From Marchantia polymorpha subsp. ruderalis (Eukaryota; Streptophyta; Marchantiopsida; Marchantiales; Marchantiaceae), in the NCBI GenBank assembly GCA_037833965.1, contig AP031357.1, positions 21,844,001 to 21,908,000 of the forward strand: 64,000 nucleotides of DNA, given 5' to 3'. The notes beneath the pieces were generated by a model, which searched no databases, was not told the DNA's origin, and saw only the letters and a list, made by a program, of their open reading frames with translations. Below are positions 20,901 through 63,063 of the stretch, piece after piece (position 1 is the stretch's first letter; each line of letters opens with the position of its first letter). A program made the translations under genes and the position numbers.

Positions 20901-22899
20901 GTCAGGTAATTTTGTGGCAAACTCGGGCACCGGTCATCCAGGTAGTAGAAGTTGCCCCGGTTCTCAGTCAGCTGCTCGGATTTCATCTCCGGCCTCGGTC
21001 GACGGACCCGAGGATTTGTGCGGGGAATTTTGGAAGATTCCATCCGTCGGTGGAGCCAACCATAGCGTGCATGCATTTCTTCGGGTTGGACGGACGGCCG
21101 CTGCTTTTCGGCCGAGGGCAGGAAAACGAATGTCCTCGAGACCAGCATGGTGCAGTAACTGCAGTTTCCCGAGCGCTTGTACGTGGTGGTGTTGGTGGTG
21201 GTCACTTAGTTGGCGGTAGTAGGCACGGATGTGGTTGCTCGCAGGAGATGACATCGTCTACGTCCCTCGCCCATGGCCTCGGCCCCTTGTCTGCTGATCT
21301 TCGCGGTGGGAGAGCCATGCCCGCCCTCGGAGCACAACGCGAGAATGTTTCCCGGAGTGTGGTCCAAACATCGGTGCTCTAAAACATGCTGGAAACCTCG
21401 ATTTGCAGCTCTGTTAGGTCGTGCATGATCTGTTCCCAATATGATAGATAGGCGATCCCTACTCTGTCTCTGACCTGTCATGGAGAGACTCCCTCCCCCT
21501 TGTGAAGTACTGTACCCCAATAGTCTGAAACAAAGCTCGTTCGCGCACCGTTCAGTCTAGGCCCTTGAAATTCGTAGGAGTTCGCCTTTTGAGGAACATG
21601 GATCAGATCAGACTGTTGGTTTTACGATCGTCTCGCTAAGCGTGTGTACGCTAGATAACTCGAGGGTACTTCATTACGTATGCGACAGGAATTGGGAAGT
21701 AGAAAATTATTATCACTTGTTATATTTCATGCGGCTGTAGAGAAACCCATCCAGAGATTGGGCACAATCTGACGAAGTCTTCATGCTTCAAACAGGGTGC
21801 TGGTAAAATTGCCCGTGAGCAACACAAGCGAATCTATTGGGAGACTTGAAGTGGCATATCCTTTCCGGTTTCCCCCCACCCCACTATCGATCCAAGGCAG
21901 TACCTGTTAGAATTCAACCTGTCGATATCCGGATGTAGTTTGTTTAGCAGGGACGCATGTTGTGTTTCGCTCCCTTCATCAAGTTGATTCAGAGATAGCC
22001 TGCATCGGTCACGTAACAAGATTAAGCTTCGGTTTGTCGTCCTTGCATCCTACTACAAGATCGCACCCCCACCGTAGCATGCACAAATGCTTGGATGTTC
22101 CAAGCACTTGCTTTGAATATATTTCGTTCGTCCAGAGGAGCCTTAGGATCCCCAAGGTCGATGCTCCGGTATGAACGACAAGTCACGCGGTGTCACTACC
22201 GAAACCAGTAATGTAAGTCCAAACCCCCGATCCCTGTTAACCATGACACCACAATGCTCTCATGAATCCAGCTCGCGGAAACCTCGCAAATCACGTAAGT
22301 ATCTCTCGCCAAATGGACAACCTTCTGACTTAAGGACTTAACCTCGTTACCAAATTAATATTCGAGATTCAGCTCAAATTCCTCGATCGCACGAGGCTGG
22401 TGAGTAACAGCTCTCTCGCGGTGTGATAAACATTACAGACTTGTCGACCGTTAGGACTCTGAGACTGCAAGGGTAAGCTGCTCGCAGAGTGAGTACTCGG
22501 GACGAAGTGTTTTTTAGAAGCTGTTGAAGCTGTTTTTAGAAGCTGTACCGAGGGTAGGACCCCGAGACCGAAGTGGTAGTATGAGATAGAAACCTGTAGA
22601 GCTGCTTCAAGTTTGTTCAGCACATCGCTCCGAGGGTAGCTCGAGGCATCAGCAATGAAACCCTCATTACATCACAGACCTCGGTACTGGTCGTGCCTGA
22701 CGTTTGTATCACTCTCACGGTCATCAACTGCTACCTGCATGCGAGCTCGGGCTTGCCAAGTTCTTCGTCCGGACCGCGCACAAGAGTTTGGACCCCTTAA
22801 AATTTGGTAAATCTCGGCATCCTTCGAGTCTAGCCACAGGCATCGAAAACTACACATCAGAAACAAGAGACAGAACTGCAGAAACAAGAGACAGGCATC
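17981..22899. other. Spacer with the divergent upstream regions of kinesin-4 and the 548-aa gene
   Basis: About 4.9 kb without a gene I can support. The first kilobase is probably the kinesin leader and promoter and contains a CTTG run near 18390-18415. From about 20420 to 21400 the sequence is GC-rich and open in several frames on both strands at once, which is a base-composition effect; none of the products has a recognisable domain. A CT run lies at about 20515-20531. The last 100 bases hold the leader of the 548-aa gene, with a short direct repeat (CAGAAACAAGAGACAG, twice, about 22858-22894). Confidence 0.5.
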
Positions 22900-24546
22900 A
22901 TGGCAGCACCATCGCCATCGCCTCCTCGTGGCCAAATCTCACAAGCCTCATTTGATAGACACCATGCCGATCATCCGGAGTCGCCTGCTGAGCAGTATCT
23001 GGATTCTCCAAACACGATGTGGCGAGCTATGCATGGAGACGAAGACTTCATGATGCAGGAGAGGTCGCCGGCTGCGGATTTTCCGAGTCCGACTTTTCAA
23101 CACATACCCTGGATGAACCCAGACTTATCGCAGGAGGACGACGACTTCGAGATGGAAGAGAGGCAGTATCAAGGCTTGGAGCTAGATCCGGAGCCGGATG
23201 ATTTACCCCAGGACGACGACGGCGCCATGGTAGATCTGCTGGACTATCTCGACCGGGAAGATAATCCAGGCCTCGGAGTTTACTTACAATTATCTCCTCC
23301 ACCTCCGCTACCACCGGGATCTCCACCTCGGACACCTCCTCCACCTCGGTCACCGGGATCTCCACCTCGGTCACCGGGTTGGCAACCTCCGCTACCTATC
23401 GGACCTCCGCCACCTCCACCACCTCCGCCACCTCTGTGGCCCCCTCACCCTCCTCCACCTCGGTCACCGGGATCTCCACCTCGGTCACCGGGTTGGCAAC
23501 CTCCGCTACCTATCGGACCTCCGCCAGCTCCACCACCTCCGCCACCTCTGTGGCCCCCTCACCCTCCCAGCCCGCCGGGCCCCGTTGCGTTGCTTCCAGA
23601 AGCGCCACCAGACCGCCCACCAGGGGTACACCGACACAGTCGCTTCTGCCCCTATAAATGGAAAGCGCCGACGGTCCGGCCCATATCCAGAGAACAAGGG
23701 CGACGGCAACGTCTCATAAACGCCGGCGTCTGGCAGTTCGTTTCCTACGAGTTCCCCAAAGTGAGAAGGAGTTTCATACTGGACCAGTTCCCGGACATCT
23801 ACTGGTCGATGGACCTGAACGCGATAGTCGTAGAGCCGTCGGAGCCGTATATGGGCCGACGCATTCCCCGCAGGACAATCACCATAGACTTCATCCTGGA
23901 AATCTGGCCCGATTTGCCGTGCGGTAGAACTTATGAACATGCTGAGGGAGACCAAAGGCTTTGCTACCCCACGGATTACCGGAACTACGAGTTCTGGAGA
24001 AATACCCTCCGCTACTTCGCCCTTTGGCCGTGCGGGGACAACGATATGCTCGGCGACGTGGCAGTCCTCGACTCGTGCTTTCACAAGCCGCTCTACACGT
24101 TTCTCTTACGGATAGCGTACATCTTTGGCTGGCTGGGCTTTCCCGCCCTGTTCCCGGCCACCTACTTTCCCATGACCATGGTGACCTTCTTGACCGGTCG
24201 CCCCTTACCCTGGGGCGACCTGCTGATGCGGGAGTTGGAACTAGATGTTAGGTACCGCCGGGACTGTCCGCAGGCGGTTAGAGTATGGAAGGTGATCTGG
24301 GATCGTGTGCTGGCCGAAGACGGGCCGGTTGAGGCACCGGTGCAGGAAAGACGATACAACTACGAGAACTATCTGTTCCTGTGCCGAGCCGCAAATGTGC
24401 CTTACAATACGCTTGTAGATGAGCGTGACAGGCCCCACTTCTATGTCTGGAATATATCTCCTTATAGCCCCGCGAGCTTTGACGCCACCCTGCTCGAAGG
24501 TGCTTGTCGAGAAAACCATAATCATCCTCCCGATTATACTTTTTAG
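22900..24546 (+). CDS. Unrecognised 548-aa protein: acidic N-terminus, proline-rich hinge, globular C-terminal half
   Basis: One uninterrupted frame of 549 codons, by far the longest in this part of the window. Residues 1-130 are acidic (QEDDDFEMEE, PQDDDGAMVDLLDYLD). Residues 132-232 are proline-rich (PPLPPGSPP, PPPPPPPPPLW) and include a 38-residue block duplicated in tandem. Residues 250-548 look folded, rich in Trp, Tyr and Phe (ILEIWPDLPCG, FWRNTLRYFALWPCG, FLTGRPLPWGDLL). The order of a strand/helix block, then W-x(2)-TL-x-Y, then a Leu-rich helix and FP-x(5)-MVTFL faintly recalls the 'putative plant transposon protein' domain found near retroelements in plants. That is inference from pattern, not a clear match. 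The start is the first ATG in frame and the stop is TAG. Lack of introns and the position at the edge of the AT-rich block fit a transposon-derived or young lineage-specific gene. Function unknown. Confidence 0.7.
   Translation: MAAPSPSPPRGQISQASFDRHHADHPESPAEQYLDSPNTMWRAMHGDEDFMMQERSPAADFPSPTFQHIPWMNPDLSQEDDDFEMEERQYQGLELDPEPDDLPQDDDGAMVDLLDYLDREDNPGLGVYLQLSPPPPLPPGSPPRTPPPPRSPGSPPRSPGWQPPLPIGPPPPPPPPPPLWPPHPPPPRSPGSPPRSPGWQPPLPIGPPPAPPPPPPLWPPHPPSPPGPVALLPEAPPDRPPGVHRHSRFCPYKWKAPTVRPISREQGRRQRLINAGVWQFVSYEFPKVRRSFILDQFPDIYWSMDLNAIVVEPSEPYMGRRIPRRTITIDFILEIWPDLPCGRTYEHAEGDQRLCYPTDYRNYEFWRNTLRYFALWPCGDNDMLGDVAVLDSCFHKPLYTFLLRIAYIFGWLGFPALFPATYFPMTMVTFLTGRPLPWGDLLMRELELDVRYRRDCPQAVRVWKVIWDRVLAEDGPVEAPVQERRYNYENYLFLCRAANVPYNTLVDERDRPHFYVWNISPYSPASFDATLLEGACRENHNHPPDYTF
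23338..23565 (+). repeat. 114-bp tandem duplication coding a 38-residue proline-rich block
   Basis: Unit 1 is 23338-23451 and unit 2 is 23452-23565. By eye they differ at a single base (CCACCT versus CCAGCT, giving Pro versus Ala). Length is a multiple of three, so the reading frame is kept. Each unit itself contains the smaller repeat CCACCTCGGTCACCGGG twice. The near identity suggests a recent duplication. Confidence 0.95.
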
Positions 24547-25553
24547 AGACTACCACCTCACTGACCGAGATGTTCATCCATTCTGTCACACTGCGGTCGT
24601 TCGGCCCAAGATTCTAATTTCGATCCGCTCGATTGCTCGATGTTACTTCCGAGGTCCCCGCCAGTACAATCCTCGATCAAAAGGTAAGGGCATGTTCTCT
24701 AATTGAAGGGTTCGTTAACCAGTAACCAGCAGTCTTGACTGACGTATACTGCAATTGACATTCATGTGCGGGACAATTGGTACATCAATCTCGTTCCGGA
24801 GCCCGATGGAGAACCAACAGCTCGAGAGGTAAAAATATAGCCACTGCGCATTTACTCGATGAGTTTAAGGTCTGAAATAGGGTGACCTTTTTTATTCTAA
24901 TTCCTAGAACTTACAACTTACTTTGTTTTAGGATCCCCAATGAATCACTGCAGAGAGAGGACTTCGGAACAGATAATACAACTTCAATATTCTAATTCTG
25001 ATTTTGATAACTAGTGACCTAAAAAACTACTTTTCATGTCATGTAAATTCAATGCTTGATCTTTGGATTAATCTAAATTACGAAGCCAATTTAATTGAAA
25101 AAAATTTGTAACATAACTCCTTTTCAATTTATCGTAGATTTGACTTTATCTTGAAAATGATCATTTGTGATTTAAAAGTATGATTTCAAAGAAAAGTTCA
25201 TATCATGATAACATGAGTTCATCAATTTCATTCATTTATCTGTTTTTAAGTTTTAAGTTTAAAACCAATTGTATATAAAATGAGATTGTAGATTATCAAC
25301 AATGAATCAATATAATCTGTATAATTTTTCTTTGAAGAAAAAATAATATTTACATAATTTTTATAAATCTAAAACGTCAAGCACTATTACTTCGTCAAGA
25401 TCCATGTCAATTTAATCAGGATGGTGAAGAATTTAATATTAAATGAATAAATGATCTCATCAAAAAATCACTTTTCACATTTGAAAGTTATGAAACTACT
25501 TTTTTAATATATGAATTGGAGAATATAATGTGTAAAAACATGCATACAAGTGG

Positions 25554-25588
25554 TTGATAAACAACACATGAAATGTGTTGTTTATCAA
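25554..25588. repeat. Perfect hairpin, 16-bp arms and 3-base loop
   Basis: The left arm is TTGATAAACAACACAT (25554-25569), the loop GAA, and the right arm ATGTGTTGTTTATCAA (25573-25588). The arms are exactly complementary and pairing stops at the next base on each side. No gene is near. Confidence 0.95.
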
Positions 25589-26150
25589 TTTAAGCATGTT
25601 TCCAAGAAGAAAAGTTGCTTTAGTTTTCTTTAGTGTACTTGAATCTATCAAGATTTTTTACTTTATCTCTCAAATTACTATGCAAGAATGAGAATAAATG
25701 TCATCAAGAGCTTTTGCAAACACTTGCTTATATTAGTGTCAACTAATGTAAGTCAATATCTAACTAATGTAGCAGCCTAACTCAATTTCATCAAGATGCA
25801 AAGTAAACATAATCATCTACCTCGTAATTTTGATCTTGAAATTCTTCAATGTCTATTGGTTTCATAACTAAAAATTTGAAAATATAATATAATATAAAAA
25901 CCTTCGTATTAACCTAAACATAATAGATAAAAATAATATAGAATTATGGTGTTACTGTTGTTCTTGTAAGGTTTGCTTATATATAACATTTCACTTAGAT
26001 TCAATGTCTAGATAAACTTACAAAGGAAAATTTTTGTTGATTTCATCATGACATAAAAAAATAAACTGCATAATGTGTTCTCAACTAACTAATTTAAACA
26101 CTCATCATCTGTAAATTAGACACAAATCCTTAATGAATTAAGCACGATTA

Positions 26151-26330
26151 GAATGATTCAATTTCAGAAAATTCAAGACAAACATTCAATCGATTTCAAT
26201 TCAATTTTACAGAAGAATGATTCAATTTCAAAAAATTCAAGACAAACATTCAATCGATTTCAATTCAATTTTATAGAAAAATGATTCAATTTCAAAAAGT
26301 TCAAGACAAATATTCAATCAAATTCTACAA
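26151..26330. repeat. 64-bp tandem repeat, about 2.7 copies
   Basis: The copies begin with GATTCAATTTCA at 26155, 26219 and 26283, exactly 64 bases apart. The first two are nearly identical; the third diverges after about 40 bases. All lie inside the AT-rich block. Confidence 0.92.
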
Positions 26331-29300
26331 AAAAAGAATTCTATGCAAAGTTCATTGTATCAATTTCAACCATAACTTCTCACAAAAAAAAACTCGACAT
26401 AAAAAATTTCAGATCTAAGTAAATTCCTCTCAAACCATATTACTAATAATATCATACGCGAGTGGATCTATTTCCAAATTGTCTGGATCCAAATCCCATC
26501 TCGATCCACTCCGGTAAATCTTCTAATATGTATCTTGCCCGTGTACAGTTCCCACTATCTGAATAACTCTCTCTTTCTCGATCTCTATGAACCAACGTAA
26601 GGACAGCATATCTGCTTTCGTGTCTTCTACGTATGGATACAGATATCCACGAAGTTACTAACAACCATGCGAATAATTTTTACATGTATGAGAAGCAAAA
26701 ATTCTCTCAGAAAACATACTCTTACTATTTTATTGCTTCAAGGTGTGCAACAAGCTCCGTCTCACGATGCATCAATTAATTGATTTCTTGAGCTAGAAAA
26801 GAGTATATCAAATAATTTGCACAAAATTTAGAACTATAACAACGATATGAGATCCGAAAAAGTAAATTGTTATAACATGCAAATCATAAAGCTAGCGTTT
26901 CCAAACAAAACGAACACGAAAATCTATGTATGAAGTACCTATGCAAGTTGAGGCATACAGCGCAATTGAGAACGTCCACACCATGAAGTGATCAAATTTA
27001 CCAATTTGAAATTTTTTTGTTCTGAAACTACTCGAGAAATAATTTGGAGATTAGTGATGCACAAGGTTTGAAATGAGTGAAATTGGACATATTTTTATAA
27101 TGCTTAATGTAAAGAGCCATGATCATCATTATAATCATGTCCAAAAAAACTATATCATATGTTATATTTCATGAATTTCACAACTAGCTCCAAATTATTT
27201 TCATTATCATAATGAAAATTCACAATATCATATGTCAATTTTATGTTGATACTAATCAGTTTAAACAATAATTAAATTCTTTGATATTCAAAATTGTAAA
27301 TTTATCAATTCAATTGCAATACCAAATGAAACTATGCAATTTTACAATAAGTATTTTATGCATCAACACATTTAACTTTAAGTGAAATAGCTACTCAATG
27401 ATTAACCTTAAAATAATTGTAAAATATAATAACTTATTATTAATCTATGTGAATTTTAATAATAAATTTATTAAATAAATAAATAAATTTATATTAGTAT
27501 CTAAGCATAAAAACATAAATAAATTTAAATGTATATTTTTTACATATAAAAAAATTATTTTTTAACATATAAAAATATTTATTTAAAGTTTACGTTTTAA
27601 ATCATGATCATAACTACAACATTGTCAACTTGAATATAATTGATCAAAATTATTAAACATCTTTACATCTTGTTGTGATATATATTTTTACTCACATCAT
27701 TTTATTTGACAAAAAATCTATTAAAATTTCAAAACAAGATAAGAAAAATATGAACTTACTGACAATTTTTCATGTTAAATTTTGTAAATGCGTCACAAGC
27801 ATACAATTAAGCTTAAATCATAATATCTCTTCTTCTAAGTAAGGTTTGATCTTCATTCTAAAATTTAACTTGTTGTATCAAGAGTTTTCAAATGAAAACT
27901 CAAGAGAGATTCTAGTTTAGCTTAAATATTTGATTTAAAATCAATTTTATAAACCTTTTATGTTAATAATACTTTCGAATAATAAAATTTAAAAATATAT
28001 ATAATTTTCATCAAAAATACTGAATTTGAATATTTTGTGCCATGTAAATCTACAAAATAATTTTGTTCAATTTTTTTTAATAATACATAATAATTTTAAA
28101 CACCTAACAATTATGACTACGTTTTTTAAAAATAAAATAATATACAATTTTTTAAATCATATTATTTGAGATAATTTATAACAAAGTTGTGTTTTATTAA
28201 TTTAAACCTAAAATAGAATTACATGGTAAAATATTGTAAAAATTTCATGCATAAATTTCTCCTACAAAAAAATATGTAGTTCATAATGGTTGAAAGCATC
28301 CACGTAAACAACAAGATTAATTCAAAAAAAACTCATATGGTGTTGAATGCGAGATAATGCTTGTACTTTTATATATACTAGGTAGCATAGATACTTATTT
28401 TAACCTTAATCAAGATTAGGTATAAAGTTACATCTAAGTAAAGTTACGTTAATCAAAATTTAATCCAAGATTTGATTTAAGCACTATTATTTCTTAACTT
28501 AATTCATGTTGTGGAAATAACAAGCTCAATAACCTATATATTGCTTCACTTAAAATTATAAAACAAAACCTAACATATGTCATTTGTTTTAAAAATAACT
28601 AACTGAAATTAAACTGCAATCAAAACATAATAGATCGAATACTAATAATAAAAGTAACTAATCAATTTTGCTTGTGTTCATCATGCAAAATTTGCATGAT
28701 AGCACAATGTTTTCTAAACTTTTTCAAATTATTAATTTTGATGAGCGTTTCAATTCGATTGAGTTTATTGCCAATCTTGATTAGCTCAATATTTTTATTA
28801 CACATTACAATTTTCATAGATTAAAATTATCATTAAAATTGAAGCAAGATGTAATTCTCTTTGATTATTACAATGAACTTGAATACTTGTATGAACTCAA
28901 TCATATACAATTTTATTCTTCAATTGTTTATGAATATTCATCTCTAATTTACTCTTAGACTTATTCACATCCTTAATACATGCATATTTAAACTAATTTT
29001 TGCATCTGTAAACTTAGATTTGATATCTTTGTCAAATCAAGTATGTGATTTACGTATAATATTAGAATGATAAAATCAAAATCTCATTATTCACATTATT
29101 CATGTATATACGTATATTATACACATTTTGTGAAATTTTTTATTTTTAAAAACTTGTCAAATCTTGCAATTAATTGCATATAAACTTGATTCAATCTATA
29201 TAATGTTTTCAAAAATTTTGGAATGATTTTTTTGTTTCATTTTTTCTTAAATACACTATTTCTTTTACTTAGAATTCTTATTTTGGTAGGAATTCTAACT

Positions 29301-30543
29301 ACATTCATCTCATTTATTATCAAAACAAATATTGTTACAAATGAAAAAACTTTTTTGTATACCACAACTTTTTGTTGTGTGAAATCTGCAATCATCAACT
29401 TGTATTTGAAAAATCTCATCATTCATTGAATTTTTCTTTAGTTTGTACACCCATTTGCAATCAATCAAAATTTTTTTACTTAGAAGTTTTGCTAGCTTCT
29501 AGATTTTATTATTCTATCTGCAATTGCATGTAAAACCTCATAGCAACATTTCATGCAAAATTATTGATAAATGTTTGAATTTCTTCAAAAAAAAATATTT
29601 TATTTTGTTATACGATCAACACAATACTATCACCATTTTCAATTTCAGTATCACAATCCCCAAGAATAGAATAATCAATTCATAATTCATAGCTCACAGA
29701 TACCTTGCTAATTTGATTTAATGACCTTTTAATAGATTATTTTGTTATAAATTATCTTTAATTGTAGATATTTGAATCTCATCAATGACAATTTGATACT
29801 TCAATTCATGATTTTCAGGTATTTGTTTCATATATAATAAAACTCCTCATTGTGTCACAATATTCATAAAATAATGAAAATTGATGTGAGAGTGAAGTAA
29901 AGCCGAATCATTCAAAAATGCAATATATGACAAGACAAAATGATATCAATCTCAGCTATGGACACACAAGAACTTATTTTATCTTTCATAATTCATGAAT
30001 TAATAATCATCTATTATGAAAATTGAAAGCCGCACGTTCCAATTGTTTGTCATCGTTAGAATTACAACTACTAGTCATCATACAATGAACATAAAATTGT
30101 TTAATTAATTTTTCTATCAAGCAACAAACATTCATTCAAAGTATATAGTTTGTTTAGCAAATTTTGAACATTTGTCAAATAAATCCAAAATAATACATTT
30201 CATATAAATAATACAATATATAAATTCAAGCGTTTGGCCGAAAAACATGATGACTATGCAGTCCAAAATAATAGCAAATAATAATATGACAAAATAAATA
30301 TAATGAACGTTGTGAATATTTGTTTAGATTAAATGATTATAACACTAGGTTTGGAGATAAACTCACTCGAAGATGAAAACATGAATTTTAAAAATGAGAG
30401 ATACCAAGAATGATTTTTCTCTCCCTTATATAGCTCTTATCAACAAGTAAGAGAACATAAGATCTCATACCCAAAACATCCATTTCACTTCTAGTGGATG
30501 GATGATGTGGAGTATAATCCTAACAAACACATTGATTGTTAAC

Positions 30544-30613
30544 TTGACGTTTTCAACTAAAAATATCACGGATAAAAATTTGACGTTTTCAACTAATTTG
30601 ACGTTTTCAGTTA
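30544..30613. repeat. Short dispersed triple repeat TTGACGTTTTCA
   Basis: TTGACGTTTTCAACTA occurs at 30544-30559 and 30580-30595, and the variant TTGACGTTTTCAGTTA at 30598-30613. Each copy holds a TGACGT core, the type of motif bound by bZIP (TGA/CREB-like) factors. No adjacent gene gives this regulatory meaning. Confidence 0.75.
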
Positions 30614-31953
30614 ACAAGCAAACGGATCGCTGACCTGACATCTATAACTAATGCACGTTAAATTAACTATAATTTCATCTTGAGTTATCTTTATTTTAGT
30701 TCTAACTAACTAAAGTTGGTTACAACAAGTCAAAAGTTAAAAATCTATATAAAATGTTGAGGTCTAAATTATCCATTTACAACCACAACAATTTGTATAA
30801 TATACAAGAACAAACTATAGATATTGTTTGATGAAATTTGATAGTTATATTCTACTATTTGAAATACTTCAGCAATAATTTTTGAATATGCTTGTGAAAT
30901 ATTCATACATCATTTTTATTATGATGAAAATTTCTTAATATATGCAGTTATGCAATAAAAGAGTATGATGAAAGTAAAAACATACAAGCTTTTGCAATTG
31001 CAAGCTCTTTGTTGAAGTTTGAAGCAAAGTAAAGATGTCAAAATAAAATATTTGAAGAGAGTAGATTTTGATATTCATTAGTTTTTTTTTCTTTTGTTAA
31101 CTATGGATTTTGAATTTATTTAGATTTTTAGATCTTAAAAATTGAAAGTAGAAAAAGTTCAAATTTGAAAGAATGTTAAAACAGCAAATGCAACACACAA
31201 GTACAATAACATATAAGTAATTCATATTTCAACATGATTCAAATTTTGATGACGATGTATCAAAATCAAAAATGTTTCAATTTTATTTGCCAAAAAAATT
31301 CAAATTTTGATAATAATTAATTTTAACAAATAATACTTTAATTTTAATTGCATAAAAGATTTAAATTTGAACACAAATAGATCAAAAATCTAAAACTTTT
31401 GAATGCAATAGATTAAAACAGTCAAAAAAAATTTGAATCACAATATATAATAAATATATGTTGAAAATTGTGATACACATAAATAATTCCAATTAGAAAA
31501 CAACATTGATAAAATATTGTGTACAAAAGATTCTATTATAATTGGAAGCATAATGAATTCGAGTACATGAGATTTTGGAAAAAAATTAATTTTAATCTGT
31601 GAACTTTGTAACTTGGCGAGATTTAGATTGACATGCTTGTGTTTTTACTTGATTCAAAATTACATGCTTATAACTTGAAAAAAAGTAGTAAAAAATTTTT
31701 TTAATTAGTTTTTAAATCCGAAATAAAAATAAATTTTTTTCTTGATCTTATATCTTTTAGTTTTAATTATAAGATATAAAGTTAGAAAAAATTGACTATA
31801 CTTGAATCTGATTTTTTGAACATTAATAGATAGAAATAATCATTTATACATACAATATGAACTACAACTTCAAGTTGCAACAAGAAAATAATGACGACCA
31901 GAAAGTAAAAGGAAGTTTGACATAATATTATTAATTACAATGGTTATAAATTT

Positions 31954-32157
31954 AGAGAGCGGCTAGTTATCACTCACTTAGGGCCAATTAGCCATCACTC
32001 TACTATATGCAGTTTTCTTATTGGTCAATGCAAGGTAGTAGTAGATGCATGATAGTAGGGATGCACTAGCAACTATAGGATGTTTGACAAATCAGATAAT
32101 AACGTATAGTAGGATGAGGGCTAATTAGTCCTGAATGAGGCATAACTAGTCTCTCCC
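31954..32157. mobile_element. MITE-like terminal-inverted-repeat element, copy A (~204 bp)
   Basis: The left end reads GAGAGCGGCTAGTTATCACT and the right end, reverse complemented, reads GGGAGAGACTAGTTATGCCT. The arms stay complementary for about 50 bases, through the GG-x-CTAATTAGCC-like core to CTACTATA. The interior is partly palindromic too (ATTGGTCAATG against the TTTGACAAAT region). It is too short to code for anything. Copy B has a similar interior. No target-site duplication is evident, so the ends are accurate only to a few bases. Confidence 0.82.
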
Positions 32158-34052
32158 AAAATCAATTGTTTTTTGAAAAAATAAGTTAAAAATATAAAAA
32201 TATAAACAAGATTGTGAAACATAACCTTTCATCTTCAACAACAATGATTGAAATAAAATTTAAAAGCAAGTTGTGATTATATTTAAACTACATCCGCAAG
32301 ATTTAATATTCATACAAGAAGATGACTATTATGTTTCAAGTTTATTGCTTGAGCTTCTTAAGTAATAATTTTAACTCAAAGAATTTTAAAATATGTATTA
32401 TGTTTTTTGTAAACTAATGAAATTATTGTTTGAAAATTTTGACACAAAGATCCAAGGTAACATTGATGCTCTTTAATAATATTTTTATTGATCTTTAAAA
32501 ACTTTAAGTTCATGTAAATAATGTTAAAAACATTTTATCTTTCAAATTTTTAGCTTCATTTTCATTGATCATTGTCAAGTTTGTTGTTTCAATGTGATAG
32601 ATTTACGATCATATGCAAGATTTTTGTAAAATTTTTGTTGATTAATGTTTTAGGGCAAAAAATGATGTCTAAATCTTCATTTGTTATCTGATATGGCAAT
32701 AAACTTGACTTGAAATAAGCTATATTCGTAACATAACAAGAATGATCGATTTTATGAAAATTTATTTTATAATCTACATATAGATTCAAGTCTAGGGATA
32801 AGTTTTTGAAAAGAAATATAGTTTTTGTTGAAGATGTGTCAAAAGTGATGACATTAAAAAATGTTTGATGAAGATCAAATTTGATGATTATATTTCAACC
32901 ATTGTTGGTAAAAATTTTGATACTTAAAAATATAACTTGTTTAACAATAGATAAGAATAACAAATGTATGATTACCCTTGCAACTCATCAAAGAATGTTT
33001 TACCTTAAGATGATTCTCATATATTATGGATTTACATCAAAGATCAACGGTAGACAACTACAGATGTATAGGCTAATATTTTATGAAGATAATTCATCAT
33101 GTGTTATAATAAATGTTTGAAGAATTGCAAAAAACAAAAGTGCATATCAATTCACTATAAAAACAAAATTGACATTGATTGATGTTGTCAAAATCAATTT
33201 ATATATAATTACAATACATTTATAATAATATGTAATAAAAATAAGAATAATCATAAAAATAATAATTTTGATTTGCAAATAATCAATGATTAAATTACAT
33301 TTGTATATAAGATAAAACAAGAATTGTAAAATATGTTCGAGAAAATTGCCTTAACTTTAACCAAAATCAATAAAAATGAAGATGTCAGTTGTTTATGCAA
33401 GAGTTCAATGACAATTTGTGTTTTTCTACCAACTTTTTAATTTTTCAATTGTTTAAACTTTTTAACTGTCCATAACTTTGGATTTTATTGTACAAGTATT
33501 TAACATGATTTTAAGATCTTTTGTACTATCACTTTGTAATCATTTTGAGATTTCTCTGTAGAAGCACTTTTCATCAAGTTAAGTTTTTTTGTATTATCAT
33601 GTTATCATAGTTTTGGATTTTTTTTGTATTTGCAAATTATTATTATTTAATTTTTTATGAATATTTATTATCATTTTGATCATCTTTTCAACATTAATTT
33701 ATCAGCATTAACTATAGATAGTTTGTAGTCATTTTTTAAAAGTCATGTTATCCATTAAAATACTAATTTTTATAAATAAAAATATAATTGCTGATTGTGA
33801 TTAAAGTATATTTAAAACTAGGTTTGTGTTTATAAATGAATATAATCTTGGATTTCTATACACCATAAATGCATAATTTATTGCAAAAACTGCAGAAGTT
33901 AAATCTTTATTTGAAAAAAATCATAGATTTTTTTTCAACAAATTTTAAAATAATTCAAATTCAATTGAAAAATTATGTTTTCAACTTTTATTGGGATAAT
34001 AAAATGTTTTATATCTTGCAAAAAAGTATGATAATTAATGTTAGTTTTATGA

Positions 34053-34082
34053 AGTATATATATAAGTATATATATAAGTAAG

Positions 34083-34112
<30 letters not shown>
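34053..34112. repeat. AT microsatellite
   Basis: Alternating TA, interrupted by two or three AAG triplets at its start, inside the AT-rich block. Confidence 0.9.
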
Positions 34113-34113
<1 letters not shown>

Positions 34114-34829
34114 AATATCACTTTATTACAAATCAGATTTTTGATAAAGATATTAGAATTAATTAAATTAATCTACCTGGTGCATTTATCAAAAAAATTT
34201 TGATTTTTCCTCAAAAAGCTACGTTTCCAAACTAAATTAATTCTGCACTACATCCATAAGTAGATCAAAATCTCAATTAGAATACTCAGTTTATATGATC
34301 AAAATTTATCGTCTTTTTTTTAAAAAAATAGTCTGAATAAATCATAGTTAAAAAACATTTTTTGTAAGATTTTTTATGAATACAATTGTGCAAAAGTTGT
34401 CATATTAATGATTAATATTATATTTTCAAAACATGAGTTAAAAAATGGATTGTTAAAAGTAAAGTTATATCTTTATTAGTGTGTAAATCTATGGATAATT
34501 CATGTTATAAAATAACTATGAATCACATAGTTTTACGATTGTATCTATCATAAATTCTATCAATGAATTGACTGTATTATTTTCATCAATACTAAATCTA
34601 GATAAATATGAATAAATCTAGCTATTAAACTATAACTTACAAAATTAGAGTGTATTTTCTACGATCCATGTAATTGTATTTCTATTTTATCTATAATAAA
34701 AAATTAATCATTCTAAAGCTATTGGAGTTCTACAAGTAAAGGAGAAAGAGTTGGAGCTTTACAAGTTCAAAGATACATAATGATATTTTGCCACCTCATC
34801 AATGGAAAAAGTGATGTTTTGTAAGTTTA

Positions 34830-34955
34830 GTGCGCCTAGGAAGTCTCGTTCAAAGATGCGAAGGTTGAAAGCGATCGCCCGGATAAGACTTCTAACCTAA
34901 AGCGGGACCAGACCGCATGGAACTAAAGCATGGGGGCGTATCCGTTAGCTAGTTC
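34830..34955. other. Isolated GC-richer patch within the AT-rich block
   Basis: Bases 34861-34920 contain 32 G or C of 60, against about 15% in a nearby sample. The edges are abrupt (starts TGCGCCTAGGAAGTCTCG, ends GGGGGCGTATCCGTTAGC). There is no open frame of note. It has the look of a structured-RNA gene remnant or a SINE, but I could not assign it: similarity of CCTAGGAAGTCTCGT to a 5S rRNA 3' region is short and not continued. Confidence 0.55.
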
Positions 34956-35411
34956 AATGTACATGTTAAAATGAAAATATTATTCTCTGAAAGTGACTAA
35001 GAAAACTAACGATAATCTTAGTGAAATAAGTTCCATGATGATTATGATTGATTTTCATAATAACTTTGAAAGTGGTTTCAATATTTATGTATACTTCTTC
35101 AATATTTACAATACAAAATTCCTCGCAAGAGTGGCAATAATTTGATTGATAACTTGTGTTATCAATGAATAATGTTTTTTGCAAGGTAAATTTGAATCTT
35201 TGAATATTTTAAGAGATGAATGTAATTATTTGATGAAAGTGCGTTTGACAATAGACATCTAGAAGAAATATGACATTTCTCTATTCATGATGAATATAAA
35301 AAAGACATTGGAATGAACTGAAATAAAAATTAATTCAAAGGGCACAAAGTTGGCTGAAACTCAATTTCACATAAATTTCAGAATATTAGAAAAATAAATC
35401 ACACATTTTTT

Positions 35412-35634
35412 AGGTAGCGGCTAGTTATCACTCACTTGGGACTAATTAGCCCTCACTCTTCTATACCCTTTTTATTGATTGGTCGATGTAATTATCTGAT
35501 TGGTCAATGTAAAGTTCTAAGGTTTGTGGATGAATAGCAACTACTTCTAAAATAGAGTGTTCGACCAATCACATAATACAATACAGTAGGGTGAGGGCTA
35601 ATTAGCCATAAGTGAGATATAACTAGCCCCTCAC
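35412..35634. mobile_element. MITE-like terminal-inverted-repeat element, copy B (~220 bp)
   Basis: The left end is GGTAGCGGCTAGTTATCACT. The right end, reverse complemented, is GTGAGGGGCTAGTTATATCT, and the arms share the CTAATTAGCCCTCAC core and run to CTATA/CTGTA. The interior carries TGATTGGTCGATG and its inverse, as in copy A, so A and B are one subfamily. Ends are uncertain by a few bases because no target duplication is clear. Confidence 0.82.
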
Positions 35635-35970
35635 AATTATTTTTATCATTTTTGATGTATAGTAGTGCTTAATTAAACTTTGTTACATGTAGAACAAATA
35701 ATGTATAGTTAGAATTCGATGCTTTATGAACATAAAGCCGGGAAGGGCTACATCAAGCTTGCAATTTCCTTAGAGATAAATGATTGAGGGGTAGCACCTT
35801 AGACAACAAGAGTATCCGTTAATTCTCGAGTCGCTTCAAAACTTCTTGTGTTAATTGAAGCATATAGATCCCCAAAGAGATTGGTATGTATAGCTACTTT
35901 GGTAGAGCATGTTTATCCTATATAATCGGAGGGGAATAGATACATCTCTTGTAGTATTGAAATCCATAAA

Positions 35971-36904
35971 GGGGAGGCGCTAGTTATTACTCACTTTAGG
36001 CTAATTAGCCCTCATCCTACTATAAAGTCTACGATCATTCGTCTATCCTTATAGGTGTTGGAGGCGTTGCATTGATGGAGGTTAACATCACTAAGACAAT
36101 TCTTCTAATCAAAATTGTACCATATGATTCAATAAGAAGAGTATGACCTTGCGTTTCCAAGTTTTTCTTACATATCCATTCATACACGCGCTTTATTTTG
36201 CAATGTTGTGGATTGTTCATTCTGCTATCTACTCTTGTCTATCAGATGTGTTGCGAATGCGCAGTCGATGATTCACTCTTGAGCACATAAGCGATTGATC
36301 GAAAGCTTGACTGATACACCTTTGTGAAGAATCTGCATTTTTTCTCCATTTGCACAAGCCTTTATGAAACATTTTGACACGATTAAGAACGCGGGAGCAA
36401 GACCTCTGAAATGGATGAGAGTTGGAAATGATTTTTTAAATACGAATGCAGATTTCTTCCCATTGCTTTGCTTTAAGCAATAAAAATTACGTGTCTGAAA
36501 GTATGATGGTGATTTTTTGTTTGGGCAAGCAGACACTTGGCCGACTCTTCGATGAATGTATTTCCTGGCGCAAACTCAGATCAGAGCTCGGGCTATCACG
36601 GAGAGTGGGTGAGCTGAATGACAAGAAACCCCGTCCGCCGTATGATGCAATTTGCAAGTGCATACGGTATCACATATGGAGTATTTGTATGAACAATGGA
36701 CAAGGCCATGCAGAGCCTTTCAATACAACAATTGCTATCACATCAAGGGCTGTACGAGCAAGGCAGTCTACGAGCTTTAAGAGAACCATAGAATAATCAT
36801 CAATGCATTGATTCTGACACTTATAAAGATTGATGAATGGCCGCAGATCGTGTACTAGGATGAGGGCTAATCAGCCCAAAGTGAGGAATAATTAGCCACT
36901 CCCC
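35971..36904. mobile_element. Terminal-inverted-repeat element, copy C (934 bp) with target-site duplication
   Basis: The left end is GGGGAGGCGCTAGTTATTAC and the right end, reverse complemented, is GGGGAGTGGCTAATTATTCC; the arms match for about 54 bases through GCTAATTAGCCCTCATCCTA. ATAAA flanks both sides (35966-35970 and 36905-36909), a 5-bp duplication (6 bp if a boundary base is shared). The roughly 830-bp interior differs from copies A and B and is less AT-rich. Its longest frame is 36446-36796 (116 aa, no recognisable domain), so it carries no evident transposase. It is a non-autonomous element, or a deletion derivative, of the same TIR family. Superfamily not assigned. Confidence 0.88.
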
Positions 36905-44411: not shown

Positions 44412-47400
44412 ATGGGATTGGTGGTGAGGCCGAATGGCATATCTGGAAAAAGCGGGGGATCCGCGGCGACGAGCGAAAAGAAGCGGTCCTCGAAGATTTC
44501 GTCCGCCCCGACGACGACGTCCACCTCCTCCTCCTCCTCCTCGCCGTCGGCCTCGACAACCTCTCGCAAAGGCTGGACGCTCTTCATTCTCAAGCAGAAT
44601 GTTTCGTGCGAGCAGCAGCAGCAGCAGAAGAAGAAGCTGTCGCAATCCAGCAATTCCTCGGCCAAGCCTCTCGACGCAGCTGCCACCACGGCAGCAGCAG
44701 CAGCTGCGGCGGCTGCTGCTGCTGCTGCCTCGGATCCCTCGGCAGCAGCTCCTCTGAAGCAGCTGCCCAGCAACAACAATTACTCGCGCGGAGATGCACA
44801 GCAGCAGCTGCAAGGGGCGGAGAAACAGGTCGACGGGGCGCAGGACAGCGCGGGGGACATCAGTCAGAGGAAGGAGCGCTTGCGCGGGCTGGCGGCGATT
44901 GTGCAGGACGTTCTGTCGCGGTCGCTGAGCGACCTGCGCAGGGAGTATGGCCAGAGCAAGGGGCCTCGAGGCGAGGACGACACCCCGTCGGAAATCAGCA
45001 GCGTCAGCTTCCGAATGCAGCTGCTCGACCGCTGCGACACGGGGCTCGGCTCCGCTCGCCTGCGCAGCGCCTCGTCCTCGTCCCTCGTCCCTTCGGACGC
45101 CGACACCTCCTTCCGCTACAGCCAGCGAATGGCCCCCGAGAGCACCGCGAAAATTGAAGGTACCTCTCCTCCCCCCTCCTCCATATTCCCTCCCGCATGA
45201 ATGCCCCAGCTCTCCCTCTGCTCTCCTCCCCGTCGCCGTCGCGTCGACCATTAATTTTGGCATCCGAGCGCTCGAGGTCCGTCGACTTTCCGCTCCGTTT
45301 CAAGAGGCTGATTTCGATGCCATGCATCCAGCTGACTCCAATTTCTGGCCCGTGTCGCGACGCGTTTTTCGAGCTGGTGCGTGAGCTGCCAGGGCCGAGC
45401 AAAATACTCGTGTTCTTGCAGAGAGCCGACGAATGCGGGAGATATGACGGCCTGGCGGATTTGATTCCGACGTCGCAGGAGTTTCTCTTGATGATTCGCT
45501 GGGCGAGACGAGTGTGTTGCCACTGTCGACCCCGAAGCTCGAAGCTCGGGTCCTGCATTCATCCATTCACTCACCCACCTGCATTTTCCCGAGCTCTGTT
45601 ATCCATCCGGGATCCGATAAAATTATGTCTCCGGGTGCAACAGTGGCCCTGGCTCGACGGAGAGGGAGAACGAGGAGGTAGCCCGCCGGGCAAGACGCGC
45701 GATATCAGCCTGAATCAGAGGCACAATGCATTGGTTTTCTTGCATGAGCGGGCGATTTGAGATGCCTCTCCAGTGCTGTCCAGCATGGGTGGCAGCGTCC
45801 GCTCACGCCAGCCTCTCGTGCCCTGCGTCGCCCCGCTGATTTCCTCGGGGCGTACAGTGAGTGGGTCGGATCGATTACGACCTCTCCCCTCGCCTTCTCA
45901 ATTCTTGGAGCCTTTTCGTTCCAACGGGAAGCGTTCGGCTGGCTGGGTGGAGGATATGATCTTCGCGTCGTAGCTAGCAAACTGCGAGCGAGCCCATGAT
46001 CCATGAAATCACCCCATTGAGTGAGAGTGAGGCCGGAAGCGAAGTTTCGCCGCCGGATGAAACTGTCGCTCCTCTGAAACGCTGTCGGAGCTGCACGGGA
46101 TGCTTCTCGAGGATCCGAGGTATGGATTGGAGTGTGTCCGGAATCGGACGGAAACCGACATTTGACTCGTTCTTTATGGAGCCCCTGCCTTCCCACGCCC
46201 TCTGTCCAATCCCACCCCACATCTCGAGTTGCAATTACTCACGCAGACCAATTTTTCAATCGAGAGTGTTCCTTTTTGGGTTTGGCAAACTGCAGTTATT
46301 AGTGTCCGGAGCAATGGACGTCGCCGAATCGTTAATGAACCGCGAATCGATTGTTGTGTTCTTCATTCGCAGGTCTGATTGACAGGGGCAAGCGTGCAGA
46401 CGACAGTTGCAGAATATCCGGGAGCCGCAAATCTTCGAGGGCGGATGAGTATGAGACTGTTGTGGAGCGACTGAACGATCCGCGAGCCACCATAAGATTG
46501 CTCGCTGCGACCGCAGTGCGAGAAGCGACCAGAAACAGCGCGCAAGCGAGGGAAGACCTATGGAGAGCGGGAGCTATACCTCCTCTTGTCAATCTCCTGC
46601 AGGAACAGGACATGGGTGTCTGCTACATGGCCACAGTAGCTCTGCTGAACCTGGCCATTGGATCCATCAGGTGCCCACTCTTTCTACCCTTTCCCATGGC
46701 ATGTCGTCGAGAAGCCTCGACCAGGCAAGGCGAGGCCCAGGTCGGCAACACTATTCCTGGAACCTTCAACTGGATCTTGTCAGAAAGTTGTTGCCGGGAG
46801 TCCAGCGTGGTCTCTCTGAATAATCTCTTTCGTCGTCGGGCAATTCTCGCACTGTCAAACGCCATGCGAGCATCGTTTTCCCGAGCCTGTCTCGTGGCCC
46901 ACGGCTCGCTGTCTTGGCGTTTCTCGACTAGAAAGCTTCGTAACTCGGTCACGTGTGGAATTGCAGTAGGTGAGAGGGATGAAGTTAGCGCGAAACAATT
47001 ATTGTCTGCCGACCGTGTGTTTGTTGTTCCGTCTGGGTTTAGGCTCGAGAAGAATGAGTGATGGGTGCAGCAGGTGAAAGTGACGCCAGAGTGATGGGCA
47101 TTGATAGTTGTGCACCTTGGCCTTCTTTTGACAGGAATAAGCAAGCTATGGCCGAGTGTGGGGCCATTGCGATCCTGGTGCGCTTGATGAGACCGGAATC
47201 TTGTACCTCGGTTCGTGAGAGCGCGACGACCGTGATTCTGAGCCTAGCTGCCTCGGATCAACTGAAGCCGATGATCGGGACGTCAGGAGCGATCGTGTAT
47301 CTGTCAGACATCCTCACCAATGGAACCACGCAGGGCCGAAGCGATGCCGTGCGAGCCCTGCTGAATTTGTCCATTTTCAAGGGAAATCGGCCTCCCATGG

Positions 47401-48095
47401 TGCAGGCCGGCACCATCGGCCCGCTGTACAGAGTGATCCTGAGAGACGCAAAAGACACGGCCGAGAAAGCGGTGATTCTGCTGAGCCATCTGTTCATGTG
47501 CAAGGAAGGTCGAGAGACCATCACCTCGGAGGAGCACACGGTGTCTGTGCTCATCCAGGTGCTCAAAAGGGCATCCTTCTCTCAAAGTTGTAAAGAGCAC
47601 ACCGTCGTGATGCTACTATCGCTTTCGACGAAGATGACAGTGCGGAGAGAGGCCGTCTTTGCGCAGGGGATTCTGCCGTCCTTGGTGGAAATTGCTCTTC
47701 TCGGCTCGAGCCCCAAGATGCAGGAGAAAGCTGCCAAGTTACTGAGGATCATCAAAGAGCATCGCACGGATGAAGGGATTCTCTCCATGGATAGGATGAG
47801 TGATTTAGATGATAAACTACCTCTCGAGAGGCAGTATTCCACCAGTAGTACGGTGGAGACCACAACCAGTACCTACACTATGCCGCCGGCTGCCAAGGGA
47901 CATGTAGATCGCTCTGTATCTGACAAGGTAGAGGTGACCTGCAAAGATGGCAAGGAGCTCAAGTATTCGAGTTTTTTCCGGTCTCTGATTTCTCGAAGCT
48001 TAAGATCAGATTACTTGACGTGTCGTGCAGTTTCCATCGACGAGTCCACTAGAGTCCCTTGTAAAATTCTTAGATCCTTCTGCTCACAAGATTAA
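44412..48095 (+). CDS. Armadillo-repeat protein related to plant U-box/ARM proteins but without a U-box (668 aa, 3 exons)
   Basis: Exons 44412-45159, 46373-46670 and 47135-48095. The junctions IEG|LIDRGK (GAAG|GTACCT, CGCAG|GT) and GSI|RNKQ (ATCAG|GTGCCC, GACAG|GA) keep phase. Residues 1-250 are low-complexity: Ser/Thr-rich, QQQQQKKK, and an Ala run near 90-107 encoded by CAG/GCN triplets. Residues about 270-560 hold ARM repeats, e.g. AGAIPPLVNLLQEQD, CGAIAILVRLM, SGAIVYLSDILTNGTTQGR, AVRALLNLSIFKGNRP, QGILPSLVEIALLGSS. This organisation matches the ARM halves of plant PUB-ARM proteins, which act in ubiquitin-linked signalling, but no U-box (C-P-I/V... ) is seen. Such ARM-only relatives are protein-interaction scaffolds. 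The C-terminal ~100 residues are Ser/Thr-rich. The start is the first in-frame ATG; the frame upstream opens with a TTG at 44295. The large first intron (about 1.2 kb) could hide another exon. Confidence 0.85.
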
Positions 48096-59298: not shown

Positions 59299-62200
59299 AT
59301 GGATCGGAGCGAGGAGGAGCTTCTGGACGATGCTGCTTTGCAGATTTTAAAGTTCTTGGGACAAGTCTATGTCCGGCTTCAAGAAGCTCAAGCCGTGCAA
59401 GAATACGTCTGTGAGCAATACGAGGCCTCGATTCGATTCCTACGTCTATGTGCGAGTGGCTCGGATCAGTCCGGGCTCTCTGTCCCCGAGGCTCCTACCC
59501 GCAGGTACTGGCATTTAGGGCTCACCATATCCTCATTCCCTATCGAATCATTGTAGCTCACCAGGACACATCAAGAACCGACATCCTGTTTTCTAGAGCT
59601 CCATTTTTGGCTCTGGTTACGCATCCTTTTGCCTTTTCCATCGGCAGATGAACTAATACTTGTCTGATTGAGTCTAAAACCAATCGGCTTCTTACTCTAA
59701 TCGTGATTCAAGCGAAGTTCAAATGTTTTCTTTCGCTCGAGACTTCTTTTCCAACTCTCGGAGATAGTCGAAACAAAAGAACCCGCATTCGTTGTGTCTG
59801 CAAGTATCTTCCGATTCTCTTGGTAGGACATTATCGAGCTTATTCCGACGGCCAAAACGTCGGCATTTTCGAACAAAAACCTGCGGCCGCTGACGCTTTT
59901 CGTGCTGTGAGCACCTCTAGAATTTTTCGAACGAGAGAGCATTCAGCGCACAAGGGTTCTCACCAAGGCCATGAAAACAAGCAGCAGCAGCAAAAGATCA
60001 AGACAGGTTAGACCTCTCAGTAACTCTGCCATGCATCACATTCATGTGCCGTCTCTGCCGTCAGCGTTTGATTGGGGACCTAGGTTGCCGTGGGATCTTT
60101 GTCCTGCTTCTGAATTCTGTCACTTTTACCTTAGCGACTTCATCAAAACATCGAAGGAATCCAGAAGACTGTAGGGGGCCGGCTGGAGCCGACCACCGGC
60201 TTGGCTTTCGTTCGGAGAGTCGCTCGAAGAACTCAGAATGGCCAATGCCAGTATTGATCTGTAATGTCCGCAATTCTTCATGGCTCGAGATGTTCTGTTG
60301 GTCGCTGGTCGAACTTTCTCCTCGGCCGCGGATGTAACGCAAAGAAATTCCCGCAGGGCCCGACGACGACGGAGACATAGCCAGCAAAGAGTTCGCGGCG
60401 CTGTGCGAGTGTTTGGACACCGTCCTTGCGGAGGCGCAAGCTGTTCGTGAAGGGTCCATCGACGCATTGACGAGAAAGGTACGAATCGGCCTCTTGCTAA
60501 GACGCAATTACTGCGAGTGCACTTCACATTTCCACTCGTTCCTGCAAGGCCACAGGAGGATGAGCAGGCGGAGGTCAGCGAGCACGCCATCTGTGATCGA
60601 TCCTGACAACCTCCTTGACGTGCATTGAATTTTGCTCCCCCGATGTGCAACACTGCAAACGGACGCAATGACATTGTGAATTCATAGCTTTTAATCTTCA
60701 CTCGCAAACCTTCATGAACGGACCTGCTTGTTGCATGGCTTGCCTTTGGATACCACAGTGCGGAGGGAGAACCCGGGGACCCAAATCCGCAGGCAATCGT
60801 CAGCATCATCCCACTGCCAGTAAAGATGGTGCTGCCAGGGTCAGCTGGACGGCTGCTTCCAGAACAGTCAACGATGGTATTGTCGCCGGCCCTGCAACCC
60901 GGACCAAAGATAAGATCGTCCGACCAAACTCGAGGAAAGCAGCCAAATCGATCAAACCCCGCAAGCCTGCCATACCCCAGATGTCATCAGCGTCTGCCAT
61001 TCCTCCAGGGGCCTGCAACAACAACAAGATTCAGAGCAGGAAGACGAGTCCGGAGAAGAGCGACCGCATACCTCGTCTGCCTCTGTCCACCAGGCCCAAG
61101 CCAAGTCTAGCACCAGCACCAGCACCGTCTTCAGCTGCACGACTGCTTCGAGATGAGCTTAACATCGACTGCACAGCCAGTAAGTCCATGCAGGCCAAAG
61201 CCAGCTTCTGATCCCCTGAGCCACTCCCTTGTAGCTCACCTTCTTGTGGAAGGCGTCAGGATATCAAATTCGGGGAAAGCCTGAATTTGGAATGTGGAAG
61301 CACTGCATAATAATAATAATTGAGAAACCAACCATAACATGCCGGCGTCTCCACAAACGCCATGTCGACAGGGGTGAAGGAAGGGCGACAAGAGAGCCCG
61401 ACTTTTTGGGTGACAATGAAATTCGTTCTTGCACGGATATATTCGTGTTAGAGAGTCGAAAAAGTTGGTGATGTGAGTCTCATGTCTCCGTCTGCAGAGT
61501 GCCGGACAGCGGAGAGATGGCGTCTGCAGTTTCCCCAGAAGTATGTAGCACTTTGGTGCTGGTTCAAGGCGAGGGAACGGTACTGGCACAGCACATACGC
61601 CGCATGCAGGACCAAACCTGCTGCCGAGGAGGCATTCTTGGCCTCGTTGGAGGATGTCTACAATGAGCAAGAATCGAGCCACGAATCCCATGATGATGTA
61701 GGAGGCCCCTACATAACTTCAACAGCCGAAATCTCAAAGTTGATCTTCTCTTGTGCCCCTCTTGATTTTTAGATATCTTACCGCTTTTCTTGTCACTGTC
61801 ACTTTGCTCGGAAGGGTGGACATTAAAAATTGGAAGTGGCAGGAATATAAACTTGCAGCTTCACCCATTCGAGAATTACAGAAGGCCATGGAAGATCTAA
61901 TGACCTCTGCTATCATGAGCGAGTCGCGGCGGATGAATCTGCAGCGATTAGCACCCGCAGGTGTTTGTATCTTGGTTCTTTTCACATTCGTGTCCTGACA
62001 TGGATAGTTAGCCTCGTTTCACCTACTTCCGAATCCAACGCGCTGCTACATTAATTATCTCGTACGAATCAGCTATCCCACTCCAAAACATGAAGTTCTG
62101 AGTTCAGGCTGACGGAGTCGCATTGTACTTGATAAGTGATGACTTCATGAATTGATCAGGATCCAAGATAGCAGAAATGAGGAACTTCAGTATGCATAAA

Positions 62201-63063
62201 CTCCGGCCACCTGGTAAGACAGATACTATTCTGAAGACCGATTTGGAGAAGGATAACACGGAGCCTGAAGAGGCCCTGAATCCCTCCTGGCTTCCTCGGA
62301 ATTGCTGGGTACACTTGTGTACGTACACACAAAATGCCTCCTGTTTGTGTAATTAAGCTGTATTCTGTACACTGGTCTGAAGGGAAAGGTGGAAACCACA
62401 GTGCCTTCTTTTTTCTCGTTCAGCAAAAGATCAGATCCTCTCTGATAGCCCATGGACGTATGGTCGATGAAACAAAAGTCAATATCTTGTCTTTCCTGAA
62501 AGATGATGGATGGGCAGTCGCAAACCAAACTGCAATTGTAAAGCGATTTGCAAGGGTAAAGCTCTCCACCTAAAGGAGAATCTGTGAAAATTGCCCACCT
62601 GGTGGAGAATCTTTTCTGCATGTACAGAACTAGGACTGGTGAAAAGATGACTAGAATCAAACAAACTGTTTGACCTTCAGTCTTGGCATCTAGTTAAGTC
62701 CTGCGAGGGGTGGAGCAGCTACCACGACTCAAGGATATTTTAAGGATAATGAATATTCCATTGCGTAAGATTGTACATAATAATGACTACACTAATCAAC
62801 TAGTGATTGACAATTGAAGCCTGCGATGGCAAGATGGCAAGATGGCAAGATTTTCAAGTTTATCTTTTCATCCATCTGCAGGCGATGTACTCAACAACTT
62901 AGAGCTGGACGATTTATATGTGAACGAGCTGGAACGGGGCCTAGTCACCTACTCAGAACCAGAGGTAATGGATAAGTGACAGGTGGTTATTTTCTGGTAA
63001 AATGAAAGTTCTTACAAAATCTTCCCTTGTCAGTCTCTGAGAATGGTGGAAATACCGAAGTAA
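59299..63063 (+). CDS. TEDC2-like protein (tubulin epsilon and delta complex protein 2), 9-10 exons, 441-447 aa
   Basis: Exons: 59299-59504, 59921-60006, 60357-60478, [60556-60573], 60759-61179, 61498-61697, 61837-61960, 62160-62213, 62882-62964, 63034-63063. All phases agree with or without the bracketed 18-nt exon. In animals TEDC2 binds TEDC1 with delta- and epsilon-tubulin and stabilises centriolar triplet microtubules. Evidence: total length close to vertebrate TEDC2 (about 430 aa, from memory). Same block order: N-terminal coil (residues ~8-55, LQILKFLGQVYVRLQEAQAV); a helix ending AQAVREGSIDAL (~110-135); a long basic Pro/Ser/Lys linker (~145-280); RWRLQFPQKYVALW plus EEAFLASLEDVY (~291-337); WQEYKLA then ELQKAMEDL (~352-375); acidic C-terminus. 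The L-W and W-x-EY-K/R-x-L motifs are the strongest points. Bryophytes build centrioles de novo for sperm flagella, so such a gene is expected there. The acceptor at 61837 and the donor at 62213 are the least certain. Assignment is from remembered pattern, not a search. Confidence 0.62.
60556..60573 (+). other. Possible 18-nt micro-exon of the TEDC2-like gene
   Basis: GCCACAG|GAGGATGAG...GCGGAG|GTCAGC gives an acceptor after a pyrimidine-rich stretch and a usable donor. The exon is phase 0 on both sides and would code EDEQAE. Reading on past it meets TGA after ten more codons, so if the exon is used it must end here. Neighbouring exons also join directly in phase, so it may be skipped. Confidence 0.4.
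62826..62850. repeat. GATGGCAA tandem repeat (3 copies)
   Basis: Three exact 8-base copies in the last long intron of the TEDC2-like gene. Confidence 0.85.

Follow-up and report, generated by a model that had tools for sequence, protein, structure and literature searches.

A candidate divergent TEDC2 gene in a liverwort genome that also encodes TEDC1, delta-tubulin and epsilon-tubulin

We analysed a 64-kb stretch of DNA from the liverwort Marchantia polymorpha (the window), which lies on contig C8 of a genome that we searched as 241 Mb in nine contigs. The window contains a candidate gene of ten exons on the plus strand, with GT-AG borders and a single open frame (Table 1); the exon phases are consistent throughout, as the first-pass annotation had described. 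Elsewhere in the window we observed a segment of a gene for a kinesin motor (PF00225, 35.2 bits), an open reading frame without a Pfam match that may encode its stalk, a gene with ARM repeats that resembles the plant U-box type (ARM_PUB, 66.6 bits; Arm, 36.1 bits), and an open frame of 570 aa in which proline-rich stretches recur and for which Pfam gave nothing at E ≤0.001. An AT-rich island has a G+C content of 24–32% in 4-kb steps, compared with 40–58% elsewhere in the window. Scans of the 64 kb for tRNA genes and Rfam families gave no matches. The genome also encodes a LEAFY-type SAM_LFY domain (128.7 bits), in keeping with a land plant or a closely related alga.

Table 1. Positions of the features described; coordinates are those of the window unless a contig is named.
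Feature	Position	Strand	Remarks
Candidate gene	59299..63063	+	ten exons
Exon 1	59299..59504	+	ATG at 59299 and N-terminal helix-like stretch; donor CAG/GTACTG, best of four compared
Exon 1, alternative donors	59449 or 59455	+	paired with exon 2 from 60357
Exon 2	60385..60478	+	second helix-like stretch, ends AVREG; best match to human FLTQALEKAVRVRRGITKA
Exon 3	60759..61179	+	basic, Ser/Pro-rich linker; donor CCA/GTAAGT
Exon 4	61498..61697	+	block 2, RLQFPQKYVALW...AAEEAFLASLE
Exon 5	61837..61960	+	block 3, WQEYK...RELQKAMEDL; weak acceptor
Exon 6	62160..62308	+	alternative end 62213 has stronger donor
Exon 7	62424..62555	+	strong acceptor at 62424; alternative start 62449
Exon 8	62716..62764	+	or from 62719; weak acceptor
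Short tandem array	62825..62851		GATGGCAA, 3.4 copies, in the intron preceding exon 9
Exon 9	62882..62964	+	placed by splice scoring and frame
Exon 10	63034..63063	+	contains stop codon (63061-63063)
Open reading frame	9954..10472	-	possible kinesin stalk
Kinesin motor gene, part	17519..18079	-	
570-aa open frame	22834..24543	+	
AT-rich island	24001..36000		
ARM-repeat gene	46339..48092	+	Arm 46339-47058; ARM_PUB 47058-48092
TEDC1 (PF14970 match)	C8:17005150-17005701		
Delta-tubulin	C3:28726915-28729754		five pieces
Epsilon-tubulin	C5:23398411-23402407		ten pieces

Twelve splice variants of the candidate gene give proteins of 445–448, 454–455 or 485–495 aa. The choice of exon 6/7 junction separates them, with 62308/62424 giving 485–495 aa and 62213/62449 giving 445–455 aa. 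A spliced length of 441–447 aa had been proposed from a first reading; this range overlaps the shorter variants (445–448 aa). The exon 1/2 junction can be formed in frame in three ways, as 59504/60385 (which uses the best-scoring donor), 59455/60357 or 59449/60357, and pairing an exon 1 end at 59504 with an exon 2 start at 60357 was rejected because it is out of frame. Among the acceptors scored, those of exons 5 and 8 were weak. An earlier end for exon 4 within block 2, at a GTATGT donor read by eye, was disfavoured because an open, codon-favoured stretch would be lost.

Codon usage also favoured the predicted frame, which scored 0.012 bits per codon compared with -0.398 and -0.270 in the other two frames, a contrast to which stops in those frames contribute. 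The introns scored -0.33 to -0.41 bits per codon, below the predicted frame in all three frames. The codon model had been trained on 26 open reading frames of the same genome that were presumed to be coding: one lies in the window, and the others are the longest at the tubulin and TEDC1 loci. Exon by exon, the predicted frame was preferred in eight of ten cases, the exceptions being the exons of 49 and 27 nt, and the margin was small for exon 3. A search of the whole genome with the candidate protein returned nine matches at E ≤0.1, every one at its own locus; hence, the gene appears to be single copy at the search sensitivity used.

We compared the predicted protein with human TEDC2 (C16orf59), a factor in the assembly of triplet microtubules in animal centrioles; the human sequence was the only animal one used. 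This sequence fits the Pfam model of TEDC2, DUF4693 (PF15764), with 511.8 bits over 285 positions (residues 148–431), which validates it over that part. The two proteins are similar in size and both begin with a helix-like part; in both, VRxG follows a second helix-like stretch and precedes a basic linker, and there follow, in the same order, a block with F..K...LW, a downstream FL..(L/M), and an EY(K/R) block. In the plant protein the motifs are VREG (exon 2), RLQFPQK...LW (exon 4) and WQEYK (exon 5), with the linker encoded by exon 3. In the 488-aa model and the human sequence, respectively, VRxG is at residues 82 and 90, LW at residues 252 and 221, and the W of the EY motif at residues 301 and 292. 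The block order of animal TEDC2, as claimed by the first-pass annotation, was thus found at similar positions, but the match is inexact: the EY motif reads W-x-x-E-Y-R in the human sequence and W-x-E-Y-K in the plant, shifting the W by one place, and the R-L-x-F-x-K...LW correspondence requires a gap. The two proteins also differ in spacing, with 14 residues between blocks 2 and 3 in the plant and ~42 in the human protein (counted by eye), and the C-terminal third of the plant protein has no recognisable human counterpart.

The summed score of the motif chain was reached by 6 of 4000 shuffled sequences. For the C-terminal blocks, the plant rule score of 53 was reached by 30 of 4000 shuffles (mean 29.6, sd 8.0) and, in a smaller run, by 1 of 300, and 98 of the 4000 scored at least as well on the N-terminal VRxG block. 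The true significance of the chain is weaker than these counts because the rule and the motif windows were devised after the resemblance had been noticed, with a single human sequence and the DUF4693 model as the comparison. Taken singly, the motifs had p values of 0.04–0.58 inside their own windows and 0.11–0.90 across the whole protein. Such values are consistent with an alternative that we consider less likely, in which the gene product is specific to plants and unrelated to TEDC2, its helical parts and basic, low-complexity regions notwithstanding, and the TEDC2 motifs are chance matches that arose from looking for them. The low number of shuffles that matched the ordered chain argues against this alternative, and the ordered motif match appears modestly to exceed chance.

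Profile searches, made with the 488-aa model or pieces of it, did not recover TEDC2. DUF4693 (cut-off 27 bits) gave no match at E ≤10 to the whole 488-aa model or to its N- or C-terminal parts, and hhalign comparison of the plant protein with human TEDC2 gave a probability of <1%. These negative results for the protein itself are as would be expected of an unrelated protein. The DUF4693 model starts downstream of the N-terminal blocks and, judging by its fit to the human sequence, appears to lie close to vertebrate sequences, so a distant orthologue could escape it. Searched over the whole genome, DUF4693 also had no match; the same search was silent in every control genome, so this result is no sign of absence. 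No other family took the place of TEDC2: none of 24736 Pfam models was significant for the 488-aa model, its N-terminal part, or a C-terminal part built with the alternative exon 6/7 junction, such that the better match to another family that had been named as evidence against TEDC2 was not found among them. The lowest E values for the plant pieces were 0.067–0.15 (Phage_TAC_11), 0.071 (Sex_peptide) and 0.095 (DUF2489), and a chimera holding the plant C-terminus matched Phage_TAC_11 at E 0.023.

Pairwise comparison was similarly weak. Of 300 shuffles, 5, 3 and 6 did at least as well as the plant and human proteins in local alignment, where the aligned residues lie mostly in low-complexity linker, a pattern that favours an unrelated protein; in global alignment the corresponding counts were 130, 47 and 16. 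Among solved structures, the plant protein had four chance matches (best E 0.051) and human TEDC2 had none at E ≤1. With 96 residues from exons 4–5 as the query, 4 stretches in viral contigs and 42 in prokaryote contigs fitted a pattern, none of them a relative.

We also grafted plant blocks into human TEDC2 and scored the chimeras with DUF4693. A 36-residue human anchor alone scored 46.0 bits; this rose to 49.4 bits with plant block 2, 55.7 bits with block 3 and 59.8 bits with both, whereas five shuffles scored 45.3–48.5 bits. In a larger graft, with the plant blocks between human pieces, the score was 154.5 bits, compared with 124.3–137.2 bits for eight shuffles and 118.0 bits for the reversed sequence. 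These first controls were too easy, since a favourable register had been picked by eye for the plant blocks alone. We repeated the graft with one automatic best-cut rule for every input, which chose nearly unchanged plant segments. The plant graft then scored 155.9 bits and the 19 controls (15 shuffles and four segments from other plant proteins) 135.7–152.6 bits, a narrower margin than before. That the candidate scored above all 19 controls argues against an unrelated protein; by contrast, the best control, a segment of TEDC1 from the same plant, came within 3.3 bits of it, as an unrelated protein might. On a human anchor, the plant C-terminal third added 0.5 bits (68.9 compared with 68.4 bits), and the exon 5–7 stretch ending NPSWLPRNCWQKIRSSL, joined immediately upstream of the human C-terminal anchor, added 3.4 bits (126.7 compared with 123.3 bits).

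The genome encodes TEDC1, which is the partner of TEDC2 in the human complex, within a 477-aa open frame that matches PF14970 with 53.6 bits (cut-off 27.4). The TEDC1 gene is on the same contig as the candidate gene, elsewhere on C8, and the candidate protein itself has no match to the TEDC1 profile. Delta- and epsilon-tubulin were assigned from summed collinear pieces, with human TUBD1 and TUBE1 as queries. The delta-tubulin pieces are 33–68% identical to TUBD1 and span its residues 1–450, and the locus sums to 350 bits compared with 142 for the next fetched locus. In the whole-genome search an ordinary tubulin gave the top single piece (124.2 bits, 29% identity), and the delta-tubulin locus came second (111.4 bits, 39% identity) with three further pieces. 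The epsilon-tubulin pieces, which partly overlap, are 35–75% identical to TUBE1 over residues 15–441 and sum to ~449 bits, compared with 263 for the highest-scoring ordinary tubulin gene, which gave two pieces. In the whole-genome search these pieces were small and were outranked piece by piece by ordinary tubulins; ten small BLAST pieces suggest that the gene may have many short exons.

The genome also encodes SAS-6 (SAS-6_N, 74.5 bits), which fits a centriole-building organism. Helix-like parts, a basic linker and a single-copy gene make up a build that is common among centrosomal and ciliary coiled-coil proteins. Both this build and the presence of SAS-6 would suit a different protein of that kind, retained by plants with swimming sperm; this alternative seems improbable, given that none of the 24736 Pfam models reached a significant E value.

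The candidate gene thus occurs in one genome together with genes for TEDC1, delta-tubulin, epsilon-tubulin and SAS-6. With three of the four complex members encoded, the fourth is expected, which raises the prior for TEDC2 and speaks against an unrelated protein, although it does not single out this gene. We conclude that the candidate is probably a divergent TEDC2 orthologue, with a probability of roughly 60%; the identification draws on the genomic context, which is the stronger support, and on a weak motif chain.

Human TEDC1, TEDC2, delta-tubulin and epsilon-tubulin are described as one complex, in which TEDC1 and TEDC2 can associate even when the tubulins are absent; if any member is lost, the centrioles have singlet microtubules (PMC11896610, PMC12704290). 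These accounts of TEDC1 and TEDC2 concern animal cells. In Chlamydomonas, triplets are described as depending on delta-tubulin, and both doublets and triplets as depending on epsilon-tubulin (PMC4888484). De novo centrioles of a moss are described as requiring SAS-6, Bld10 and POC1 (PMC9014216), and higher land plants as having neither centrioles nor Pix proteins (PMC2582488). The literature searched, which largely excluded subscription journals, yielded no account of a plant TEDC2.

We infer orthology, and likewise binding and when and where the protein acts. By analogy with the human complex, the helices of the candidate would pair with TEDC1, the pair would hold and stabilise a dimer of delta- and epsilon-tubulin on the wall of growing centrioles, and B- and C-tubules would thereby form or stay attached. 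In the plant, this would happen solely during de novo centriole formation in sperm mother cells. The gene may also be missing from flowering plants, as the first-pass annotation proposed, an idea that the negative Pfam scans favour weakly. We suggest, tentatively and at somewhat less than even odds, that a land plant whose body cells lack centrioles has kept the full module of delta-tubulin, epsilon-tubulin, TEDC1 and TEDC2 for use only in the de novo centrioles of sperm, and that TEDC2, shortened between its blocks, represents a minimal core for triplet microtubules.

The mechanism by which compound microtubules form is described as not understood (PMC12704290). If centrioles are confined to sperm, deletion of all four genes could spare the body cells of the liverwort and so allow clean tests. 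If the candidate is indeed TEDC2, the origin of TEDC2 would predate the split between plants and animals.
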